A stretch of DNA of 43,129 nucleotides, from assembly GCA_002899765.1 (NCBI GenBank), contig PPDH01000015.1, forward strand, positions 1 through 43,129, read 5' to 3'. The position numbers and the translations under genes are program-made. Under the pieces are notes generated by a model that was given only the letters and a program-made list of their open reading frames with translations, was not told where the DNA came from and made no database searches. This DNA is from Sulfurimonas sp. (lineage in GTDB: Bacteria > Campylobacterota > Campylobacteria > Campylobacterales > Sulfurimonadaceae). Numbering within the stretch: position 1 is the first letter of the stretch; each line of letters starts with the position of its first letter. Shown piece by piece: positions 18,761-30,152 of the stretch.

Positions 18761-19399
18761 TTACAGTTTTAAGTATTGATAATAAACTAAAAATCCTATA
18801 ACAACCAACAATAATGAAGCAAAAATTTCTATATGTTTTTTATATTTTGCTAATTCTATAGCGATACTTGAACTGATTTTGAAAACAAATAGATAAAAAA
18901 ACAGAAATGGTATTATAACGACACCTAAACCAAAAGAAATTCCATACAGTAGCGATATGCTAAAATCTATAGTTGTAGAACTAAGCAGCACAAGAGACAT
19001 CGTAGGAGCACAAAAACTAAAAGAGCTAAAAAATCCTATTCCTAAATACCCTAATGTAGATATTTTTGAACTTGTACAATCTTTTATGCAAGATTTTTTA
19101 ACTCTTAAGGCTGTAAAAAAAAGCCAACTACCAAGCAGAATGATAGAAGTACCTAATATTTGTTAAAAAAAAGAGTTCTCAATCATAGATTTTACTAAAC
19201 CGGCTCCAAAAAAAGCTAAAACTGCTATAAGAGTGTATGCAACTACTTTAGCTCCAAAAAACTGAATTAAAATTTTCAAAGTTCTCGATTTGTTTTCTCC
19301 ATTAGCCAATAAAACAGGACTCATTACGGGCATGCAGCTAATAGCGCAAGCGGTTGCACCCAGTTGCAGACCCATAAAAAAGATACTTAAAAATATCAT
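18761..19399 (-). pseudogene. CcdA/SafE-like membrane protein interrupted by in-frame TAA
   Basis: The frame from ATG 19399 to 18761 encodes 212 codons with about six membrane helices. There are two related cysteine-proline motifs, AISCMPVMSP (Cys22) in helix 1 and SFCAPT in the second half, matching the pseudo-symmetric CcdA/DsbD core that moves electrons across the membrane. A single TAA at 19163-19165 (codon 79) splits it. The 54 codons between that stop and the internal ATG at 19000 stay open in the same frame and encode helix sequence. Last gene of the TonB operon, overlapping the double-cubane gene by 4 nt. It could be an inactivated gene or a base-call error. Confidence 0.7.
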
Positions 19400-20613
19400 C
19401 TGTTTTTATTTCTTCGTCTAGTCTTTAATGATTCTACAAAAGCTTCAATCCTTGTACTTAACTGCCCTTGTTGAGAAGGACTATAATCGCTTTCAATGTA
19501 TAAAATAGGAATGCCGGCTTTTTCCATAGCATCCAGCACACTTCTTTGTTCCATCTCATATACCGTACATCCTGCAAATGCCTGATATACAACAGCATCA
19601 GCTTTATAGTTCTTTACAAGATCAATAATTCTTCTTATACGATCATCGTTGGTTGTGAAAATTGGGCAAGTGCAGGCTTTTAGATACTTATCTGAAATGG
19701 AATCTATCATATCATATAAATTCCACTCATCAACAGCTACCATGTCATTAAACATTCTATTTGAACTACATGTTTCATCAGCTACAATTAAGGCGTCTGA
19801 TTGTTCTATAATAAGCGGTATTTTATAGTTTGGAAATATAGGCGGTGAGCCTGTAAAAACAATTCTTGGACTCATTTTGCCTGCGACATTTATTTTTTCA
19901 TCCACCCTTGTTTTCATCTCTTTAAGTAGAACTTCCATGGCTTCTATCCAGCTGTCTATCTTATCAAAGAAAAAAGCGTTTGTTATCAAAAACATATCTA
20001 CCCCTAAGATAGGAGCAATTTCTTGCTTTCTATATTCTGATAATTTATGATAAAGTGATTGTGCATAACCTATCTTTTTTATTGAAACTTCTAAATTTGA
20101 TTTTGTGAGTTTTTTGTTTTTAAACTTTGATAATTCAACAGCAAACTGTTTTATGCTTTTTCTCCAGTATTCACGGCTTCCCTCACTCTCTTTTGTACGA
20201 GGAAAATCTACATCGACAACCTTGTAACCAAAATTTTTTACGATAGCCCCGGCTTTTGTTTTTTGATCACATGTAGTAGGAGAGAATACAATATCTGGTT
20301 TATCGGTAAAATTATTTGATGCGAAATGTCCGACAGTAGCTTTTACTAATGGACAAGCTTTCTGCGTAAGTAAATCGCTTCCTATTTCATCATCTGTATA
20401 AAAACCATTACATAGTCTTATAGGAACTCCATCAAGGGCATAAATAATTTCAGATGGTATTTGGATGCACATAGTTCCTATTTTTGTTTTACCGTTATGA
20501 AGCGGTTCATTTTTACAGTAAACCTTTTCAAATAATTCATAAAAATAATTCATACTTTGAATTGTAGATTTAAAATCATCTTTAATACTGTTTATAATCT
20601 TTATTGCTTCCAT
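19396..20613 (-). CDS. Double-cubane-type reductase, HgdB/2-hydroxyacyl-CoA dehydratase family
   Basis: 405 residues from ATG 20613. Conserved-position cysteines are Cys87 (KACPLVKA), Cys115 (TTCDQKTKAG), Cys282 (DETCSSNRM), Cys314/Cys316 (ACTCP) and Cys349 (FAGCTVYEME), and the tail SDYSPSQQGQLSTRIEAF is typical. The pattern fits HgdB-like and double-cubane-cluster proteins, which drive low-potential reductions after ATP-dependent activation. No BadF/HgdC-type activating ATPase is present in the window. The frame remains open upstream to GTT at 20671-20673, adding 20 coding-like residues (SSIERAIETPKDKQ) after a good AAAGGAG site, but without a standard start codon. Translation may therefore begin there or at a non-standard codon. 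Confidence 0.8.
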   Translation of the reverse strand: MEAIKIINSIKDDFKSTIQSMNYFYELFEKVYCKNEPLHNGKTKIGTMCIQIPSEIIYALDGVPIRLCNGFYTDDEIGSDLLTQKACPLVKATVGHFASNNFTDKPDIVFSPTTCDQKTKAGAIVKNFGYKVVDVDFPRTKESEGSREYWRKSIKQFAVELSKFKNKKLTKSNLEVSIKKIGYAQSLYHKLSEYRKQEIAPILGVDMFLITNAFFFDKIDSWIEAMEVLLKEMKTRVDEKINVAGKMSPRIVFTGSPPIFPNYKIPLIIEQSDALIVADETCSSNRMFNDMVAVDEWNLYDMIDSISDKYLKACTCPIFTTNDDRIRRIIDLVKNYKADAVVYQAFAGCTVYEMEQRSVLDAMEKAGIPILYIESDYSPSQQGQLSTRIEAFVESLKTRRRNKNR

Positions 20614-20668
20614 AGCTTTATGTCTATTTTGTTTGTCTTTTGGCGTTTCAATTGCGCGTTCAATACTG

Positions 20669-21664
20669 CTAACTTGATTCTCCTTTTTTATCCATAGCCA
20701 TTCTAATTATAAATCCCTCTTTTGTTGATTCAAAAATAGTTTTCCCTGCAAAATTTGCTTCCAAACAACCCTCTTCAGGACAAGCTGCTACACATTTTAA
20801 ACACAATGTACAGTCTTCGGTAACAAGATTTTTACTGGTAACATCATCAGCTATTTCTAAAATATCCATATCACATGCTCTATAACAATCACCGCACTTT
20901 GTACATTTGCTGCCATCCTTATAGAGCTTTAAAAGAGCCGGTTTTGAAAAGGTATACTGCAGTGCCGCCATGGGACAAAAATAACAAAAGAATCTTTTTT
21001 TTATAAATGAGCCAATCAAAAACAGACCAACTATAATCATTCCTAAAGTAGTCATTACAAGATCTGTTTTAGAAGAAAAATCAATATAAAATTGACCGAA
21101 ATCACCTGTAAAAGCAGGTATCAGCATCCTTCCCGGACAAATGTCACAAAAAGGCATTGATAGTCCATTTGGAAGTTTTGGAAGTCCAAAAACAGAGTTT
21201 GCAATCATTACCGGAATTATCAAAAGCAAAATTAATAAAATCCATTTAATCGGTTTTATCTTTGCTCTACTAGACCAGTCATACTGTGAAAATCTTATTT
21301 TTAATTTTGTTCTAAACGCTGTGATCCAGTCCTGCATTGTACCAAGTGGGCACACATAGCCACACCAAGCTTTATTTAAAAGCCAAAGCCAGCCTATAAA
21401 TATTCCCAGTGAAATTAAAAAAGCATAACCTGCAAATCCTAAAAAAGTTTCCCAAGGGTGTTTTAAATCATGCTGCAACATCCCCAAATAGCACTTTCCA
21501 CCAGTAAAATCACCATTATATACGCACGCAAAAGTAGGCAATTTATTGCCCAAATCAAATCCGATATACCCGCCGTAAACAATCAATAAAAATGCAACTA
21601 TTTGGAACCAAAAACGAAATCTTACAAGATTCATATTATTAATTTTTCTTTTTAAATTTGACAC
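20669..21664 (-). CDS. NapH/MauN-type membrane-bound 4Fe-4S protein
   Basis: 331 residues with about five membrane helices. CGYVCPLG (Cys101, Cys105) and CYFCPMAALQ (Cys217, Cys220) are the cytoplasmic CxxxCP motifs of NapH-like proteins. Two ferredoxin clusters follow: Cys244/247/250/254 and Cys275/278/281/285. Extra cysteines at 47, 58, 163 and 166 face other parts of the membrane domain. It likely carries electrons between the quinone pool or cytoplasm and a partner. The start is GTG (21662-21664) with AAGGAG 5 bp upstream. It lies between a TonB receptor and the double-cubane gene, which may be its electron partner (inference). Confidence 0.88.
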   Translation of the reverse strand: MSNLKRKINNMNLVRFRFWFQIVAFLLIVYGGYIGFDLGNKLPTFACVYNGDFTGGKCYLGMLQHDLKHPWETFLGFAGYAFLISLGIFIGWLWLLNKAWCGYVCPLGTMQDWITAFRTKLKIRFSQYDWSSRAKIKPIKWILLILLLIIPVMIANSVFGLPKLPNGLSMPFCDICPGRMLIPAFTGDFGQFYIDFSSKTDLVMTTLGMIIVGLFLIGSFIKKRFFCYFCPMAALQYTFSKPALLKLYKDGSKCTKCGDCYRACDMDILEIADDVTSKNLVTEDCTLCLKCVAACPEEGCLEANFAGKTIFESTKEGFIIRMAMDKKGESS

Positions 21665-21673
21665 TAATTCTCC

Positions 21674-23371
21674 TTAAAATAAATAGTTCATACCAAAAAG
21701 ATATACTCTTCCGGCAGATGGATACCCGACATGTACTTCATATTGTTTATCAAGCAAATTTTCTATTTCTACATAAAATTTCATGCTTTTATGCTTATAT
21801 TCAACTTTTGAATTAGCTAAAAAATATCCTTGTAAAACTTCGGTATTGGAGCTATTGTTAAAACTGTCACTCACATAATACCCGCCGATATTTGCTTTAA
21901 AATTGTTATAAACCGCATAAATGTCTGATTGAATTTTATGCTTTTGTTTAGCCGGCAAATATAGCCCTGTGTCATCATTTTTAAATAATAAATACAAATA
22001 TGAAGCATCGATTTTAAATATACTATTGATTTTCAAATCTAAACTCACTTCACAACCTTTTCTTGTGCTTGATGTTACATTTTCATATATATAAATACCA
22101 TTGATATCGTAAGAACCACTTATGGCATCATCGATTTTGCTGTAAAATAAATTTAAATTGCCATTTAAACTCTCTGTTATCGCTGATGACAAACTTAACT
22201 GATAATTTGTTGTAGATTCCATTTTTAAATCAGGATTGCCTTTTACAGTAGTGTTTTCATAGTATCTTTGTTTAAATGTTGGAGTTTTTGATGATTGAGT
22301 GATTTTAATACTGGATTTAAAATCATCTGTTTTATAACTCATACCAGCTTCAAAATTTATTGATTCTCCAAATTTAGAATGAGAATTTGCTCTCAATCCA
22401 AAGTTATAGTAAAGCCTATCAAAGTTTAATTGCTTCATGCCGTATAAACTATACAAATTTTCATCATGACTGCCTGAATTTGTAGCTTCTGCCGTTCTGT
22501 TTTCTAGATTTATTCCAACGATTGATTTGCCTATAAATAAAATATCACCGCTATATTTGAAATCACTTCCCAAAGTTTGTGTTTTTAAAAAAGTATCAAG
22601 ATTACTATCTGAATCTTTATTTAAATCATCATTTTTATTTGCATATACTCTACCCTCAAATCCACTGTTTTTAAGGAGCATAGATGTGCCGACTGACTCT
22701 TTTTTGTATCTGGCATTGGGTGTTGGATTTGTAATCCTTCCTGTAGTTCCGCCCTCATCAGTTGTATAACTTGAAGCAATGCTTATATCTATGTTTTTTA
22801 ATAGCAATGTATTTATGTCAAATTTTGCGGAATTGATTTTACTATCACCGTTTAGCCTATGCCCATTTGTATTTTCGTGATTTATGTCAAGAGAAAAACC
22901 AATATCATTAAATGTCTCTCCTATATTTAAACCATACTTATTTGTATCCAAAGAACCTTTTGCAATATGTATCTTATTTACATAAGATTTATCATTTTTT
23001 TTTGAAGTGATTAGTATTACTCCGCCGCTTGTATTGTCTCCATAAAGCGCTGCACCGGAACCTTTTATAATCTCTATTTTTTCTAAATTTTCAGTAGAAA
23101 TTCCACCCAGTCTAGCTGTTCCGGTAAGAGAATCAGTCAATGGTCTTCCATCGAAAAGGACTAAAACTTCATTTGTAGTCGAACCTTGTAAACTAATAAA
23201 GCCATCAGATGCTTTCACCCCCGGAAATTTATTTAACAAATCCACTAGCATTTGTACATTTAAAATTTTTATTTCCTGTGACGAAATAACAATTGAGCCA
23301 TTGTTTAAAGTAGAATCTGCACTTAAGAAAGTGCATAAAAATAGAGAAATGATTAGACTTTTATTTTTCAT
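21674..23371 (-). CDS. TonB-dependent outer membrane receptor (short form)
   Basis: 565 residues from ATG 23371, which starts a signal peptide (MKNKSLIISLFLCTFLSADS). The longer frame upstream overlaps the preceding gene and lacks such features. The plug domain shows VLVLFDGRPL and ALYGDNTSGGVILITSKK; the rest is beta-barrel with a terminal aromatic (MNYLF). It is shorter than its two neighbours. The ATG overlaps the end of the Cys-pair protein gene by 11 nt. It imports an unknown ligand across the outer membrane using TonB energy. Confidence 0.88.
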   Translation of the reverse strand: MKNKSLIISLFLCTFLSADSTLNNGSIVISSQEIKILNVQMLVDLLNKFPGVKASDGFISLQGSTTNEVLVLFDGRPLTDSLTGTARLGGISTENLEKIEIIKGSGAALYGDNTSGGVILITSKKNDKSYVNKIHIAKGSLDTNKYGLNIGETFNDIGFSLDINHENTNGHRLNGDSKINSAKFDINTLLLKNIDISIASSYTTDEGGTTGRITNPTPNARYKKESVGTSMLLKNSGFEGRVYANKNDDLNKDSDSNLDTFLKTQTLGSDFKYSGDILFIGKSIVGINLENRTAEATNSGSHDENLYSLYGMKQLNFDRLYYNFGLRANSHSKFGESINFEAGMSYKTDDFKSSIKITQSSKTPTFKQRYYENTTVKGNPDLKMESTTNYQLSLSSAITESLNGNLNLFYSKIDDAISGSYDINGIYIYENVTSSTRKGCEVSLDLKINSIFKIDASYLYLLFKNDDTGLYLPAKQKHKIQSDIYAVYNNFKANIGGYYVSDSFNNSSNTEVLQGYFLANSKVEYKHKSMKFYVEIENLLDKQYEVHVGYPSAGRVYLFGMNYLF

Positions 23372-24320
23372 CAAACCATATCTCTTTTGGCTCTTTTTTC
23401 TTTTTTCGTCTGTAATAATAAATACCCAATGAAAAAACAAGCATTACGCCGATAACTACATAAAAACCAGAGAGTTGTGATGAATATTCAAGAGGAGATG
23501 AGCTAAAAGTAAGCGGCATACTCATAGAATATTTGATTTTTGAATATTGTTTGCCTAAATATTCACCCGACTCATCAACGGTATAATTTGCTTCAACAAT
23601 CATTTTTTCAGAAGTTCTTTTACTGTCCTGAGCTTTTTCGTAAGTAGTTCTCGGTATTTCAAATGAGATAAGTCCATCTTCTCCCGGTTGAACAAAACTA
23701 TTCCATCCTGTTTGAGTAAATACTTTTAAGGGTATTTTATCCGCTGAAACACCTCTATAATAAATTTTAAATCTAGCTATATCACCGGACCATAAACAAC
23801 AATTTATCTGATGCTTTCTGATTGGTTTTAACATTACTACCTCAAAATCCAACTCTTTTAAAGGTGGTTTGTCATAATGTGAACCAACTGTTCTTCCTCG
23901 GATTTCTTTAAGAACGGAATCCTGAATATTTGCATCTTTATTATAAACCCGTATAGTTGTAGCTACGACATTTAAAACATCATTTTCAACATTTTTTTGC
24001 TCAAAAAATATATGATAACTCCCCTTATTTGGAGTAGCCACTTCAATAAAATTGTCTAAAATCTTTCCATTAGCCAAAGAATCGTCAAAATCTCTAACTA
24101 AAACTTTTGATGAATTTAAGTCACTTACATGTACGGCATCTTGAAGATTGCCATTTTTTACAATCAGTTCCTTATAACCGATTTTTTTTTCAGAACCGCC
24201 ACTGCAGCAACTAGCACTATCATCATTTTTTTTCTCTTCTATCCATATTGAAGCGTTCAATATAATAGGTAAAAATAAAAGCACTATGAAAATAGTGCTT
24301 TTTAAATTAAAGGTTTTCAT
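23361..24320 (-). CDS. Membrane-anchored periplasmic protein with Cys-Cys motifs
   Basis: 319 residues: a signal peptide (1 to about 23), a periplasmic beta-rich domain, one membrane helix near 285-303 (GFYVVIGVMLVFSLGIYYY) and a short basic cytoplasmic tail. Two vicinal cysteine pairs are striking: SASCCSGGSEKK just after the signal peptide and INCCLWSGD in the middle. The second half (FKIYYRGVSADKIPLKVFTQ, then DGLISFEIPR) resembles DUF4198-type domains linked to nickel/cobalt uptake, but only loosely. It lies between two TonB receptor genes, so a role in handing a metal or metal complex across the periplasm is an inference. Confidence 0.6.
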   Translation of the reverse strand: MKTFNLKSTIFIVLLFLPIILNASIWIEEKKNDDSASCCSGGSEKKIGYKELIVKNGNLQDAVHVSDLNSSKVLVRDFDDSLANGKILDNFIEVATPNKGSYHIFFEQKNVENDVLNVVATTIRVYNKDANIQDSVLKEIRGRTVGSHYDKPPLKELDFEVVMLKPIRKHQINCCLWSGDIARFKIYYRGVSADKIPLKVFTQTGWNSFVQPGEDGLISFEIPRTTYEKAQDSKRTSEKMIVEANYTVDESGEYLGKQYSKIKYSMSMPLTFSSSPLEYSSQLSGFYVVIGVMLVFSLGIYYYRRKKKKEPKEIWFDEK

Positions 24321-24322
24321 GA

Positions 24323-26308
24323 TTAAAAACTCATTTTAAGAGTTGCCATTACAACTCTGCCGGGAGAGTTATAGTATTCTATATAGCCTTTATCAAATAG
24401 GTCATCTACACTTACTTCAAATTGACTATTTTTAGTTATTTTTCTTGATAATTTTAAATCATACAGAGTGTAACTCTCATAAGCTTTAGATTCAGTATTT
24501 AAATCATCGCTATATCTTTTTCCTGCATATCTTACACCGGCATTAATTGTACCAATATCTGAGTTTTCATAGGTCAGAGTAGCAGAAGCTTTTTGTTTCG
24601 GGATATAGGTTAAATACTTGCCTTCTAAATCTGTATTTGCTTCAAATTTTTCAATTGTGGACTTGTTATATGTATAGTTAGCTAACAGTCTCCATTGTGT
24701 ATTAAATTTGTAATTAAATTCTGTTTCAATCCCTCTGATTAACACTTCTCCTACATTTGTTTTTTCTTCAAAATTGGTACTAGTAGGGTCTAGAGGTTTA
24801 ATACGGTAAATAAAATCTTTTGCATCACTTTGATATGCAGTAATATTTATAGCTCCATTACTGCCTAGTTTTTGATCAAGTCCGATTTCATAAGAAATCA
24901 CTTCTTCAGGTTTTAAATCGGGATTTGCTGCATAAACTCGTCCGGAAGTATCAATCCAATCCCTGTATAGATCGCTTACTGTAGGTGCGCGAAATGCTTT
25001 TCCAATCGATGTTCTTAGTGAGGTATCTTCTGTTACATGATACACTAAACCAATTTTTGGACTAAAAGCATTAAACGATTTTGTTGCATGGTCAGTGTAA
25101 ACATTGTTGACTTCATCATACATTTTACCACCGTGATTTTTATAATAATCTAGTCTGGCACCGATATTTAAGATAAATTTTTCATTTATAAACCACTCGT
25201 CTTGCCCAAAAAATGCATAATAATCTTGCTTTCCTTCAGTTGCAATAATATCTGAGTTTGAAAGATAAGTATCAACCTTTTCTGCAAAACTTGTTTTACC
25301 TTCAATTCCTGTAGTAATAATATGATTACCTATAGGCAAAGTATATTGAAGAGTAGTCCCATAATCACTTGTTTCTCCATCATCTTTGTATTTTATAACT
25401 GAACCTGACAAAGAGTCGTAAGTAGTCTTAGTCATTGTATTATAAATTGTAATTTTCATATCAGATGAGTTTTTAAAAAACTTGTTGTAGTTTATCTGAG
25501 CAGTACCCATAGAATTTGTATAGGGATTATATCCTCCGGGAATATCTAAAACACCAGTGGTTTTTCTATCCATATAATTGTATGAAACACCTATACCAGA
25601 GCTATCATCTATGTCATAGGTTAACTTTAAATTTGCATTTGCTTTTTCTACACCTCTTTTTATGGAGTTATCTTTTGGCTTCACATCATCTATGTATCCA
25701 TCACTATCGGTAAGTTGCCCTAACAAGTAATATCCAAATTTTCCGTTTTTACCACTTGTTGAAATTGAACCGATTTTTGTATTCATACTTCCATAACTAA
25801 GGTTTATATTGGTTTGTTGCTTTTGAGGTTTTTTAGTAATTATATTAATAACACCGCCCATTGCATTTGAACCGTATAAAGATGATCCAGATCCTTTTAC
25901 AACTTCTATTCTTTTAATAGCATCAAGTGGAATCTGAGTCCACTCTACCGCTCCTCCGAAAGCATCATTAAGAGGTACACCGTCTAATAATACTAGAGTT
26001 CTAGCGTCATTTCCTCCGAAACCTCTCATGTAAACTTTGTTGTTAGAACTTGTTGACATAACCCCCAACGGATTACGGATACTGACTCCAGCAACATTTT
26101 TTAATAATTCGTTTGCATTTAAACTTGTAGAGTTTTTTATATCTTTCTCAGTTATAACCTCAATGCTAGCAGGAACATCAGCAACTTTTCTCTCTGTTTT
26201 TGTTGCAGTTACAGAAACATCACCCAAATCTATTGAATCTGCATTTGCTACATTTAAAAATGTTGCAGCAGCAACTAAAGATAAACTTATACCATTTACT
26301 TTTGTCAT
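24323..26308 (-). CDS. TonB-dependent outer membrane receptor
   Basis: 661 residues with a signal peptide, a TonB-box-like stretch (LGDVSVTATK), a plug (VYMRGFGGNDARTLVLLDGV, then SLYGSNAMGGVINIITKK) and a 22-strand-type barrel ending in MATLKMSF. The CirA/BtuB-like form gives no clear ligand. Its first 24 residues, and their DNA, are nearly identical to those of the receptor at 27817-30009, while the remainder has diverged strongly. First gene of the operon that runs to 18761, led by a structured 5' leader. Confidence 0.92.
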   Translation of the reverse strand: MTKVNGISLSLVAAATFLNVANADSIDLGDVSVTATKTERKVADVPASIEVITEKDIKNSTSLNANELLKNVAGVSIRNPLGVMSTSSNNKVYMRGFGGNDARTLVLLDGVPLNDAFGGAVEWTQIPLDAIKRIEVVKGSGSSLYGSNAMGGVINIITKKPQKQQTNINLSYGSMNTKIGSISTSGKNGKFGYYLLGQLTDSDGYIDDVKPKDNSIKRGVEKANANLKLTYDIDDSSGIGVSYNYMDRKTTGVLDIPGGYNPYTNSMGTAQINYNKFFKNSSDMKITIYNTMTKTTYDSLSGSVIKYKDDGETSDYGTTLQYTLPIGNHIITTGIEGKTSFAEKVDTYLSNSDIIATEGKQDYYAFFGQDEWFINEKFILNIGARLDYYKNHGGKMYDEVNNVYTDHATKSFNAFSPKIGLVYHVTEDTSLRTSIGKAFRAPTVSDLYRDWIDTSGRVYAANPDLKPEEVISYEIGLDQKLGSNGAINITAYQSDAKDFIYRIKPLDPTSTNFEEKTNVGEVLIRGIETEFNYKFNTQWRLLANYTYNKSTIEKFEANTDLEGKYLTYIPKQKASATLTYENSDIGTINAGVRYAGKRYSDDLNTESKAYESYTLYDLKLSRKITKNSQFEVSVDDLFDKGYIEYYNSPGRVVMATLKMSF

Positions 26309-26463
26309 ATTTTTCTCCTAATTTATGCTTTGATAAAACAACACCAAAATATATATTATGATTAAATTAACGAAAGTAATGATAAAACAATATTGGTGCT
26401 TGCCGCCATTCCTTGCCTTGTAGTCGCCAAACTAAAATCATAACAAGAAACTTTGAGATGCAC
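26309..26463 (-). ncRNA. Structured 5' leader RNA, copy A
   Basis: The leader of the TonB operon A shares about 100 nt with the leader at 30010-30152. Stem 1 in plus-strand coordinates is 26442-26450 (AACAAGAAA) with 26409-26417 (TTCCTTGCC). In RNA this is UUUCUUGUU pairing GGCAAGGAA with three G-U pairs. The loop contains the invariant UUUGGCGACUACAA. Stem 2 joins GCACCAA (26393-26399) with UUGGUGU (26341-26347). It ends near the ribosome-binding site AGGAG. It matches none of the riboswitch signatures I know. Confidence 0.55.
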
Positions 26464-26613: not shown

Positions 26614-27774
26614 TTATTTTAAAAGCTTTAGATACTTCATTCTTTTTTTTCTATACCAAATAATAGTACCCGTTATTACCAATACCGTCGTTGCAATGCC
26701 TGAAAAAAATACTAATAGCCGTCCAAACATACCAAAAGCTTCACCCGTATGAAGAGGAAACTGCCAATTAACAAAGGTTTCACCCGCTGACATGTTGTTT
26801 GGATCTTTAATCTTAATAATATTTGCACTGTATTGATCTATCCACACGACGCTTTTGCCTTTTGATTTTCTGACTTCTCCCTTTTGACGTTTATAAATTC
26901 TATATGTATCTTTTTTATCAAGAGGCAGTCCGATAGCCATTAGTTCTGCATTTGGAAATACTTTATTTGCCATACTTAGAGCTGTTTCTATAGGGATGGT
27001 GCTACTCTCCGACTCTCTTTGCGATGTTATATTTTTTAAGTTCTCTTCGATTGGAGAAAATATCTTAATAGCAGGCTTTATGTATTGCGGATATACGATA
27101 TAAACTCCGGTAAACGTAACCACAAAAACAATCACCGCACTATAAAAACCGCTTACTCTATGCAAATCAAAATTAAACCGGATAGGATTGGCATCTTTTT
27201 TTAGAGTCAGTGCCGATTTAAATTTTCTATTTTTCGGCCACCATAAATAGATACCGGTAATAGTTATTATCAGCCACAATATTCCTGCTATGCCTATAAT
27301 ATTTCTTCCCGTACTTCCCATTAAAAGATAAGAGTGAAGTCCATGCATTGTTTTGATAATATGTTTTCTGTCAAATCCATACTCGCTTTGATTACGCCAT
27401 CCTAAAACTTCGCCGCTTACAGGATTAATCATGACTTGATACCAATCAAATGCACTGCAGCATTTAGCTTTATCTTTGACTAAATTATCTTTTGCTACCT
27501 TAAACCATACGACAAACACCCCGTCATCCCCTTTTGGCGGATGTATAATTGCAGGAGTTTTATCGGGATAAACATCTTTGGCAATTTCTAAGATTTCAGA
27601 AGCAGATCTGTATTCACCTTTAGAAGCAACACTTAAGAGATCAGGATTTAACATCTTATCCAATGCTTCGTCAAATACAATAATACTCCCTGTTAATCCT
27701 ACAACACCAAGTATTATTCCTAAAAAAAGACTTAAATATAAATGAATCTTTACAAAAAGATTTCTTATTTTCAT
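26614..27774 (-). CDS. PepSY-associated TM protein (siderophore-uptake type)
   Basis: 386 residues with four membrane helices: one near the N-terminus, two around 150-210 and one at the C-terminus (FGMFGRLLVFFSGIATTVLVITGTIIW). The periplasmic segments are PepSY-like. HTGEAFGMFGR and GIYLWWPKNRK are hallmark stretches of this PiuB-like family, often found beside ferric-siderophore receptors and thought to be an inner-membrane reductase or transporter. A CC pair (AKCCSAFDW) occurs in its first periplasmic segment. It follows the upstream receptor gene by 42 bp. Confidence 0.88.
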   Translation of the reverse strand: MKIRNLFVKIHLYLSLFLGIILGVVGLTGSIIVFDEALDKMLNPDLLSVASKGEYRSASEILEIAKDVYPDKTPAIIHPPKGDDGVFVVWFKVAKDNLVKDKAKCCSAFDWYQVMINPVSGEVLGWRNQSEYGFDRKHIIKTMHGLHSYLLMGSTGRNIIGIAGILWLIITITGIYLWWPKNRKFKSALTLKKDANPIRFNFDLHRVSGFYSAVIVFVVTFTGVYIVYPQYIKPAIKIFSPIEENLKNITSQRESESSTIPIETALSMANKVFPNAELMAIGLPLDKKDTYRIYKRQKGEVRKSKGKSVVWIDQYSANIIKIKDPNNMSAGETFVNWQFPLHTGEAFGMFGRLLVFFSGIATTVLVITGTIIWYRKKRMKYLKLLK

Positions 27775-27816: not shown

Positions 27817-30009
27817 CTAGAATTTAAACGATAATTCACCGTAAATAGTTCTGCCGGGTGTCATATCAGATTGAAAATATTCCTTATCAAACAAATTATT
27901 TATAGAGAGTGATGCACTTAAATAATCTCGTATTTTATATCCTATTTTTGTATTAACAATAAAATACGATTCGTATGCTCCATATACATCTTTTACTATA
28001 TCAGAGTTATCATCTTTTGTGTACATGTCATCAACATACGAGCCGATTACAGAACCATTCCATAAACCATAATCTCCATTTATGCCTATGTTATATTGTG
28101 TCTTTGGAACATAAGTCAACTCTTTGCCGACACTATCCGGATAGGAATCATTCTCAATCATTTCTGTATTGTTGTATGTGTAGTTGGCAAATATATTTAT
28201 CTTGTCTGTAATTGCTTGTTTAACCTCAATTTCAAGCCCTTTTATCTCTGCTTTACCGGCATTTCTTTTTTCCCTTAACGTAGAACTCACATCTGTTGAG
28301 TACATCATATCAGATAAAACATTCTCATAATATGTTGCTTTTAGCTGAGTTTTTGTGTTAAATGTTTGTTCAAAACCGATTTCCCAAGACTCAACCTTTT
28401 CAGGCGCTAACCCTGGACTTGATTGAATTAACTTTGCTCCTGAATAGTATGCAGAGTACAAATCACTCAAAGACGGTGCTCTAAAAGCTTTTCCCCAAGA
28501 AGCCCTTAGAGTCGTGCTTTTTGTAGGTAAATATACTAATGATACCTTAGGGCTAAAATATGAGTCATCTCTTTTTTCGTAAGTTGTATAAACATCATTT
28601 ATATAATCTTTAAAATCACCTTCCGTTTCCCAATAATCGTATCTTCCGCCAACATAAGCTATCAAATTTTTTGTTATATCTATCGTATCTTGTATAAAGA
28701 ACGCTTTTGTAATACTCTCTCCGTTGTTCTCCCTTTGCAAAGTTGTTTTGCTATCATAATCTCTCCAATTCGTTAACGTATTGATATCTTTTTGTAGCTC
28801 GTTTTTAGTTATATCCATACCTACGGTTATATAATTATAATCGCCCAATGAAAAGTTTAATTGTGCCGACGCAAATGTCTTTTGACTCGGCACATCCGTA
28901 AAAGTTCCGGAACCGCCCGCAGAAACAGCCCCCGTTGTTTGAGAGACATACCAATAGTTATTATCAAAATAGCTTGCCTTAACATCTATATCTATAGAAT
29001 CATTAAATGTGTTTGTATAATTTATCGTGAATTTATCAGATGTTTCACCGTTTGGACCGAATAAAAAATCTTTTTCTGAGAGTGTTGCTTTATGTGTTTC
29101 ATCAAGTTGAACACTTCCGCTATAAATGGGATTTCCTGAGCTATCAGATAAATAGGTATTAAAATCATTATATTTAGCTTCATCTTTATGATGATTATAA
29201 TCAAATGTTACTTTTGAATTATCATTAATATTGTAAAACAGTTTTAACCCGATATCATTTTGTGTCCAGGATTTTTCACCTTTATCCCCTACTATATACT
29301 TTGCAGCTCCTTTATAATCAGTAGTTAATTGCTGTCCTACTACATCAACTCCACCTGTACCGCTGCTTGGTGTCTTTATAGCAAGATCACTTGTATATCC
29401 ATCACTTTTTTTATGCCCATAATTAACACTAATGCCTAAAGAATCAAAAAGTTTATCTTTATATGATAATTCTAAATTTTTATAATTGTTGCTTCCATAT
29501 CCTGTTTTTATGTTAAATTCTTGTTTTGTCGGTTCTTTTCGTATGATATTAATTACACCGCCCATAGCATTTCCACCGTATAGTGATGAAAAAGGTCCCT
29601 TAACGACTTCAATTTTTTCTATATCATCTACAGCTATACTAGACCAGTTCACTCCGGAAGAAAAAGCATTGTTTATTGATACGCCGTCAACTAAGACAGC
29701 AGTTCTAGTATATTGCGGAATACCTCTTAATGATACTGCGTTACTCCAACTATTTGGTGCATGATCTGCATCTGATCTGACATATACTCCCGCTACATCC
29801 TTTAATGCTTCATCAGCTCGCTGTACCTGCTTATTTTCTATCTCTTTTGAAGTTATTATCTCAACACTTGCAGGTGATTCAGATGTAGTAATCGCTGTTT
29901 TTGTAGCGGTCACAGAGACTTTTCCCAAATCTGTTGAATCTGCATTTGCTACATTCAAAAATGTTGCAGCAGCAACTAAGGATAAACTTATACCATTTAC
30001 TTTTGTCAT
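27817..30009 (-). CDS. TonB-dependent outer membrane receptor
   Basis: 730 residues: signal peptide, TonB-box-like LGKVSVTATK, plug (AVSLRGIPQYTRTAVLVDGV, then SLYGGNAMGGVINIIRKE) and a barrel ending GELSFKF. The barrel has longer loops than its paralogue at 24323-26308, implying a different ligand or larger external loops. The signal-peptide DNA and the 5' leader are shared with that paralogue. It is followed by the PepSY gene, which makes a ferric-siderophore or related metal chelate the most plausible ligand (family inference). Confidence 0.92.
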   Translation of the reverse strand: MTKVNGISLSLVAAATFLNVANADSTDLGKVSVTATKTAITTSESPASVEIITSKEIENKQVQRADEALKDVAGVYVRSDADHAPNSWSNAVSLRGIPQYTRTAVLVDGVSINNAFSSGVNWSSIAVDDIEKIEVVKGPFSSLYGGNAMGGVINIIRKEPTKQEFNIKTGYGSNNYKNLELSYKDKLFDSLGISVNYGHKKSDGYTSDLAIKTPSSGTGGVDVVGQQLTTDYKGAAKYIVGDKGEKSWTQNDIGLKLFYNINDNSKVTFDYNHHKDEAKYNDFNTYLSDSSGNPIYSGSVQLDETHKATLSEKDFLFGPNGETSDKFTINYTNTFNDSIDIDVKASYFDNNYWYVSQTTGAVSAGGSGTFTDVPSQKTFASAQLNFSLGDYNYITVGMDITKNELQKDINTLTNWRDYDSKTTLQRENNGESITKAFFIQDTIDITKNLIAYVGGRYDYWETEGDFKDYINDVYTTYEKRDDSYFSPKVSLVYLPTKSTTLRASWGKAFRAPSLSDLYSAYYSGAKLIQSSPGLAPEKVESWEIGFEQTFNTKTQLKATYYENVLSDMMYSTDVSSTLREKRNAGKAEIKGLEIEVKQAITDKINIFANYTYNNTEMIENDSYPDSVGKELTYVPKTQYNIGINGDYGLWNGSVIGSYVDDMYTKDDNSDIVKDVYGAYESYFIVNTKIGYKIRDYLSASLSINNLFDKEYFQSDMTPGRTIYGELSFKF

Positions 30010-30152
30010 TTCTTATCTCCAATGATGTAATAATTATATATGGCACCAATGTTGATTAACTAAGATAATGGTAAAATCATGTTGGTGCTTGCCGCCATTC
30101 CTTGCCTTGTAGTCGCCAAACTAAGATCATGGCAAGGAACTTTGAAGTGTCA
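30010..30152 (-). ncRNA. Structured 5' leader RNA, copy B
   Basis: The counterpart of copy A. Stem 1 is a perfect 9-bp pairing of plus-strand 30131-30139 (GGCAAGGAA) with 30098-30106 (TTCCTTGCC). The enclosed loop carries the same UUUGGCGACUACAA. Stem 2 pairs GCACCAA (RNA sense, plus 30082-30088) with UUGGUGC (30043-30049), where copy A has a G-U pair at its end. An inner UGAUU/AAUCA pairing extends stem 2. It lies directly before the ribosome-binding site of the receptor gene. Confidence 0.55.

Follow-up and report, generated by a model that had tools for sequence, protein, structure and literature searches.

The window analysed here is the whole of a 43,129-nt stretch, contig PPDH01000015.1 of Sulfurimonas sp. 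GCA_002899765.1. The system in question is a minus-strand operon at positions 18761-26308 of this window, in which TonB-dependent receptors stand together with the genes of a putative low-potential redox chain. In order of transcription, its genes are as follows.

24323..26308, minus strand: TonB-dependent receptor A, with plug and barrel domains (Pfam PF07715 and PF00593)
23361..24320, minus strand: DUF4198-type periplasmic protein (the Cys-pair protein; AF2 model), with a predicted C-terminal membrane anchor and SCC and HxxxCC motifs
21674..23371, minus strand: TonB-dependent receptor B, smaller and BtuB-like (Pfam Plug); the open reading frame (ORF) opens at 23440 and the likely ATG is at 23371
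20669..21664, minus strand: NapH-type membrane polyferredoxin (PF12801, PF13237)
19396..20613, minus strand: double-cubane cluster protein (DCCP), an HGD-D paralogue (NF040772, 323 bits; PDB 7yyl/6eno)
18761..19399, minus strand: CcdA/DsbD-TM-like protein with an in-frame TAA inside (family match and comparison with relatives)

The first-pass annotation had named these six genes as one operon. All six were found on the minus strand, and the short distances between them (from receptor A to CcdA: 2 nt, an 11-nt overlap, 9 nt, 55 nt and a 4-nt overlap) make co-transcription plausible, although the CcdA-like gene is interrupted by a stop codon. A promoter scan of the operon remained at chance level (65 matches against a mean of 60 in shuffles).

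Further module loci were picked by NapH similarity, so that the other genes at each locus constitute an independent observation. Scanning named genomes with the NapH alignment returned 79 loci, from Sulfurimonas, Sulfuricurvum, Sulfurovum, Thiobacillus, Sideroxydans, Gallionella, Rhodoferax, Methylomonas, Bacteroidota, Nitrospirota and others. Fifty of the loci, spanning Campylobacterota, Betaproteobacteria, Gammaproteobacteria, Bacteroidota and others, had full flanks, and in these the partner genes near NapH were DUF4198 (50/50), DCCP (49/50), HgdC (48/50), a TonB receptor (44/50) and CcdA (41/50). Dedicated TonB/ExbBD genes were present in many module loci and exporters (RND, MacAB) near some; no conserved inner-membrane importer was found in the module. 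DCCP matches were obtained in 24 of the 120 genomes of a genus survey and in 70 of the 397 genomes of a phylum survey. Twenty DCCP loci were inspected. Close relatives of the window protein came with the module, which is kept as a unit in several Campylobacterota families, whereas loci at roughly 30% identity formed a separate clade without it. Dozens of loci from several phyla thus exclude a gene order unique to this strain, and their conservation lends strong support to the earlier proposal of a coupling between TonB uptake and a low-potential redox chain. The claim that no characterised system has this composition held in the literature searched, where no paper joining double-cubane and TonB was found. 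The module is real, conserved and apparently undescribed, and would tie TonB uptake to a dedicated reductase.

The ~30% identity clade comprises a second DCCP-HgdC pair in Campylobacterota (L199-L203, L208, L218), and several of its members adjoin SelD or TusA/YedF-like genes, which suggests a selenium role for that pair. A selenium link of DCCP context has been described (PMC5322559); this context belongs to the separate clade, and a selenium role for the window module was rejected.

The window DCCP matched PDB 7yyl over residues 39-397 (phmmer E=1.6e-59) and 6eno at E about 1e-59. Its residues C49, C68, C87, C115, C282, C316 and C349 were invariant in the homologue set and, as judged by alignment, correspond to Cys of 7yyl. 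Scores against NF040772 were 323.5 bits for the window protein and 340.7 bits for the canonical copy, both under the NCBIfam equivalog cut-off of 350, and by these scores the module DCCP would be classed as a divergent subfamily. HgdC-type ATPases can drive electrons to very low potential, and characterised DCCPs reduce small molecules, although the physiological relevance of the in vitro reactions has been called unclear (PMC11971306).

All Cys of the NapH-type polyferredoxin (16/16) were invariant in 68 sequences across phyla. The protein carries Fer4_5 membrane motifs (PF12801) and a dicluster ferredoxin domain (PF13237), and its TIGR02163 (NapH) score of 66.9 lies below the 213-bit cut-off. 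Hydropathy and model helices predict four transmembrane (TM) segments with the N and C termini inside, and C47, C58, C173 and C176 fall in two predicted periplasmic loops. Counterparts of these four residues are missing in canonical NapH and in the second NapH-family protein of the same genome. No PDB relative was found for the NapH model (pLDDT 75). NapH-like proteins are thought to carry electrons across the membrane (PMC8238504).

A related NapH variant was detected in 19/80 Gallionellaceae genomes, and similar Cys loops were seen by eye in L076 and L087. In the six sister loci that were fetched, this variant was accompanied by a TonB receptor, a DUF4198-like protein, CcdA and ExbB, without DCCP. 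On the basis of these DCCP-less loci, NapH, receptor, DUF4198 and CcdA look like the core shared by both systems, to which DCCP-HgdC would have been added to supply electrons. Sister-system loci include L076, L087, L235-L239 and L241, and the DUF4198-like protein is His/Met-rich in L076 and L087.

The AF2 model of the Cys-pair protein (pLDDT 84.6) was matched by Foldseek to Zcp (Zn/Co/Cu-bound entries) and to the Ni-DUF4198 entry 9gcb (prob 1.00, TM-score 0.44-0.49 by query), so a DUF4198-type metal-binding fold is predicted. Solved structures of this fold have Ni, Zn, Co or Cu bound (PMC12537917 for Ni-DUF4198). Pfam PF10670 (DUF4198) gave no match for the window protein and sub-cut-off matches for homologues. 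H170, C174 and C175 were invariant in 15/15 window-like homologues; in other clades the DUF4198 proteins carry H(S/N)CxxGH or N-terminal stretches rich in Met, the latter in some Beta/Gamma members. The nearest PDB relatives of receptor A were Cir, PhuR and BtuB, without a clear substrate call, and receptor B reached 133.9 bits against TIGR01779, far under the cut-off.

A complete copy of the module was found on contig C26 of the same genome. Its genes encode a TonB receptor, ExbB, ExbD, CcdA, a large protein, NapH, DCCP, an HgdC-type ATPase and an RND-sized protein; the C-terminal domain of the large protein is related to the Cys-pair protein. At locus L037 of genome G011, which has the same arrangement, Pfam assigned Fer4_5/ferredoxin plus DUF4198 to the large protein and BcrAD_BadFG to the ATPase; the protein after it was an AcrB-type RND and the last one TonB. 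A CusA (metal-type RND) identity was rejected for the neighbouring exporter, which scored best as a multidrug RND, below the cut-off. The window operon lacks the dedicated HgdC-type ATPase that this paralogue and 48/50 other loci possess; it is thus a paralogue in reduced form, on which the ATPase would have to act in trans.

The remaining features of the locus are a lesion in CcdA, a leader and a neighbouring unit directly upstream.

19163..19165, minus strand: premature TAA at codon 79 of the CcdA frame (read 19165-19163), where relatives L032 and L033 have TCA
26393..26431, minus strand: 39-nt conserved leader upstream of receptor A, with an identical copy at 30082..30120 upstream of receptor C
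26614..27774, minus strand: PepSY_TM protein (FoxB/CrpH metal reductase family; PF03929, E=6e-66), neighbouring unit
27817..30009, minus strand: TonB-dependent receptor C, in the neighbouring unit and preceded by the leader of the window operon

In addition to the CcdA stop, the DCCP start codon is GTG in the close relative L032 and GTT in the window, so that the window ORF starts about 30 residues late. It is somewhat unlikely, in our estimate, that the window copy is a decaying one without a function of its own, with only the C26 paralogue mattering; this would be compatible with any reading of the module. The nonsense codon, the lost start, the missing HgdC and a remnant in G011 speak for decay. 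That remnant (L038:9366-9524) is a 159-bp piece from the end of DCCP with 96% identity to the window; it lies at the syntenic site, where G011 has probably lost the operon. Against decay, dN/dS was 0.06-0.26 across all five window genes compared, both CcdA halves included, a range that indicates purifying selection; the leader is still intact; and both lesions may be assembly errors in a genome of 45 contigs. Between the window and L032, dS was about 1.5 for receptor A and the DUF4198-type gene and 0.4-0.6 for NapH, DCCP and CcdA, whereas divergence between L032 and L033 was more even across genes. It looks as if a receptor and metal-binding cassette had been swapped onto a constant redox half.

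Receptors A and C share a near-identical start in addition to the 39-nt element. This leader was present in 4/120 genus genomes, all of them module carriers. It precedes the first receptors of module operons in G036, G069, G040, G463 and L129 and, with 3 mismatches, a receptor and polyferredoxin in G276. An inverted repeat (TTCCTTGCC/GGCAAGGAA) covers the upstream half of the element and reaches upstream. A single RNA structure was not convincing (fold z=-0.76), and no Rfam match was obtained for the element, which could be a regulatory RNA, a leader peptide or a protein-binding site. Copies were seen at G000:C12:9722-9760 and in L032, L033, L034, L129 and L194. An orphan receptor of the same genome (L193, G000:C12:1-12000) has the leader and is convergent with genes for an SsuA-like ABC importer and NnrS. 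The PepSY_TM gene was not found near the other module loci searched, and it is therefore probably a separate unit.

Which metal the module might handle was read from its gene context. A DUF2946 gene opens the operon in Comamonadaceae L092 and Rhodoferax L098; it has CxxC, 45 residues and RGPP near its C-terminus, a pattern that marks CruR. CruR is a proven copper-sensing leader with this 45-residue spacing and controls a TonB receptor operon (PMC9426467). The gene order in L098 was PCuAC, CruR, TonB receptor, CruR, module, CruR and cydAB, and PCuAC also lay within 10 kb of the module in L104, L116 and L120. In Bacteroidota L122 and L124 nos genes surround the module (in L122: NosZ, NosD, NapG-type, an ABC ATPase, a weak NosL and a NosY-like gene), and a NosY homologue lies near it in L127. 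Within the genus, with the distant-DCCP genome G048 set aside and strong nosZ fragments counted as present, nosZ occurred in 21/23 module genomes vs 44/97 others (Fisher p=4e-5, uncorrected for kinship) and nifH in 7/23 vs 16/97 (p=0.15). The suggestion that a metal or metallo-cofactor is imported thus gained support as regards a metal, and the CruR/PCuAC/nos/cydAB context in relatives and the nosZ association make copper the best-supported single candidate; the case is strongest in Betaproteobacteria and would extend to the window by homology. The reductive release or remodelling that the first-pass annotation also suggested is a putative step, so that its interpretation is supported in part. 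No DUF2946/CruR leader gene (CxxC, R(A/G)PP) was found in the window by motif scan. In L098 a DUF2946/CruR gene heads cydAB (L098:16082-19477), which suggests copper-responsive control of a copper-free bd oxidase.

Consensus scans for Fur, NikR, Zur and FNR revealed no strong box shared by the loci; only in L104 and L120 did the module have perfect FNR-type sites. Rfam searches on six sources returned no cobalamin riboswitch and nothing module-related.

We regard the chances as about even that the module serves reductive, TonB-dependent metal acquisition, most likely of copper. The receptor or receptors would import a metal chelate into the periplasm, where the anchored DUF4198-type protein (Cys/His, or Met-rich in other lineages) would take the metal. 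HgdC, acting in trans for the window copy, would drive electrons at very low potential into DCCP, which would pass them to the cytoplasmic ferredoxin domain of NapH. From there they would move to the periplasm-facing four-Cys site, at which the chelate would be reduced and the metal released, with CcdA maintaining periplasmic Cys in the reduced state. The freed metal would supply periplasmic cuproenzymes (N2O reductase, heme-copper oxidases and perhaps pMMO). More tentatively, and with the balance leaning slightly against it, this DCCP subfamily may be an ATP-driven electron injector across the inner membrane, in which HgdC-DCCP energises NapH and the periplasm-facing Cys site strips metal from TonB-imported chelates. 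We know of no transporter-coupled reductase that uses ATP hydrolysis to reach such potentials.

Several observations weigh against this proposal. Copper reduction needs no ATP-boosted electrons, so copper alone does not explain DCCP, and the sister system runs without it. The window operon itself lacks HgdC, has a broken CcdA and has lost its DCCP start, and in G011 only the remnant is left. CruR heads the module in only 2/34 genomes tested, nosZ is absent in 24/44 other module genomes, which rules out nosZ dependence as a general rule, and the genus association lacks a kinship correction. The mean Fur score upstream of Beta/Gamma loci was 10.7 vs 10.2 in controls (p=0.002). Finally, four Methylococcales copies (L101, L113, L125, L128) adjoin CobN-like, HmuU-like and DUF2149 (HmuV) genes, a heme de-chelatase context that is unexplained under copper.

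Some of these points favour the same architecture with a ferric siderophore or heme as substrate and Fe(II) leaving via FeoB, which we consider unlikely. On this reading the need for ATP-driven electrons would follow from the very low reduction potentials of such chelates, and a low-potential donor is chemically reasonable. Heme/siderophore families give receptors A and C their best scores, the neighbouring PepSY_TM protein is a member of the FoxB superfamily, nearby exporters could recycle a chelator, and the CobN-HmuU-HmuV genes would fit with HmuS, which needs its heme reduced (PMC12583661). This is countered by the CruR, PCuAC, nos and cydAB context, by the nosZ association and by the Fur boxes upstream of Beta/Gamma loci, of which none exceeded 13/19 whereas controls reached 14/19. 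We think it improbable that the chain serves not uptake but the maturation of a periplasmic copper enzyme, N2O reductase or another, by supplying it with electrons or reduced thiols. The position inside the nos clusters of L122 and L124, the nosZ association in the genus and the presence of CcdA would agree with such cofactor assembly, but TonB receptors in 44/50 loci and dedicated TonB/ExbBD in many point to uptake, CruR responds to copper supply, and 24/44 genomes have no nosZ. Equally improbable is an inward flow of electrons, ending at DCCP as the last enzyme, which would reduce an organic or corrinoid compound that had been imported into the cytoplasm; characterised DCCPs do reduce small molecules (PMC11971306) and receptor B is BtuB-like, whereas the module has no conserved inner-membrane importer, the six Rfam sources held no cobalamin riboswitch, and the extra NapH Cys are predicted to face the periplasm.

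A conserved cross-phylum operon with copper-sensing leaders in some members offers a first physiological role of DCCPs to test. If true, the module would be an additional, ATP-powered way of acquiring metals reductively in sulfur and iron oxidisers, denitrifiers and methanotrophs, whose turnover of N2O and methane is copper-dependent.

The closest known analogues of the module are CrtA-CrpH, CcoG and FoxB. The cruR-crtA-crpH operon of Bordetella (PMC12914433, PMC13038864) likewise joins a TonB receptor to a membrane-bound putative metal reductase and, as in some module members, has a CruR leader and a link to copper enzymes; its reductase is a heme-based PepSY_TM protein, not NapH/DCCP/HgdC, and the parts consulted mention neither DUF4198 nor CcdA. 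A TonB receptor (C) and a PepSY_TM gene adjoin the window operon, the latter at most a candidate for the CrpH subfamily. Compared with characterised DCCP and ATPase pairs (6eno, 7yyl), the module has a homologous DCCP (E about 1e-59) and, in complete copies, an adjacent BadF/HgdC-type ATPase, but its DCCP is tied to TonB uptake and a membrane polyferredoxin and scores 323-341 bits, under 350. With NapH, NosR and CcoG, the last a cupric reductase (cited in PMC13038864), the window-type NapH shares four TM helices, CxxxCP-type motifs and a dicluster ferredoxin domain; it differs in the four extra invariant Cys in predicted periplasmic loops and in having DCCP as its neighbour in almost every case. 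PepSY_TM-DUF2271-DUF4198 flavinylated clusters (PMC8238504) and the Ni-binding DUF4198 (PMC12537917) also place DUF4198 beside a membrane electron conduit or TonB receptors, although the N-terminal His of the latter was not seen in the module sequences read, which have Cys/His or Met-rich stretches. In FoxA-FoxB and FpvA-FpvG siderophore uptake (PMC13038864), a receptor brings the chelate to the periplasm and an inner-membrane protein reduces it and releases the metal; the periplasmic reduction proposed here would parallel that of FoxB and CrpH, with an ATP-driven DCCP as the electron source.

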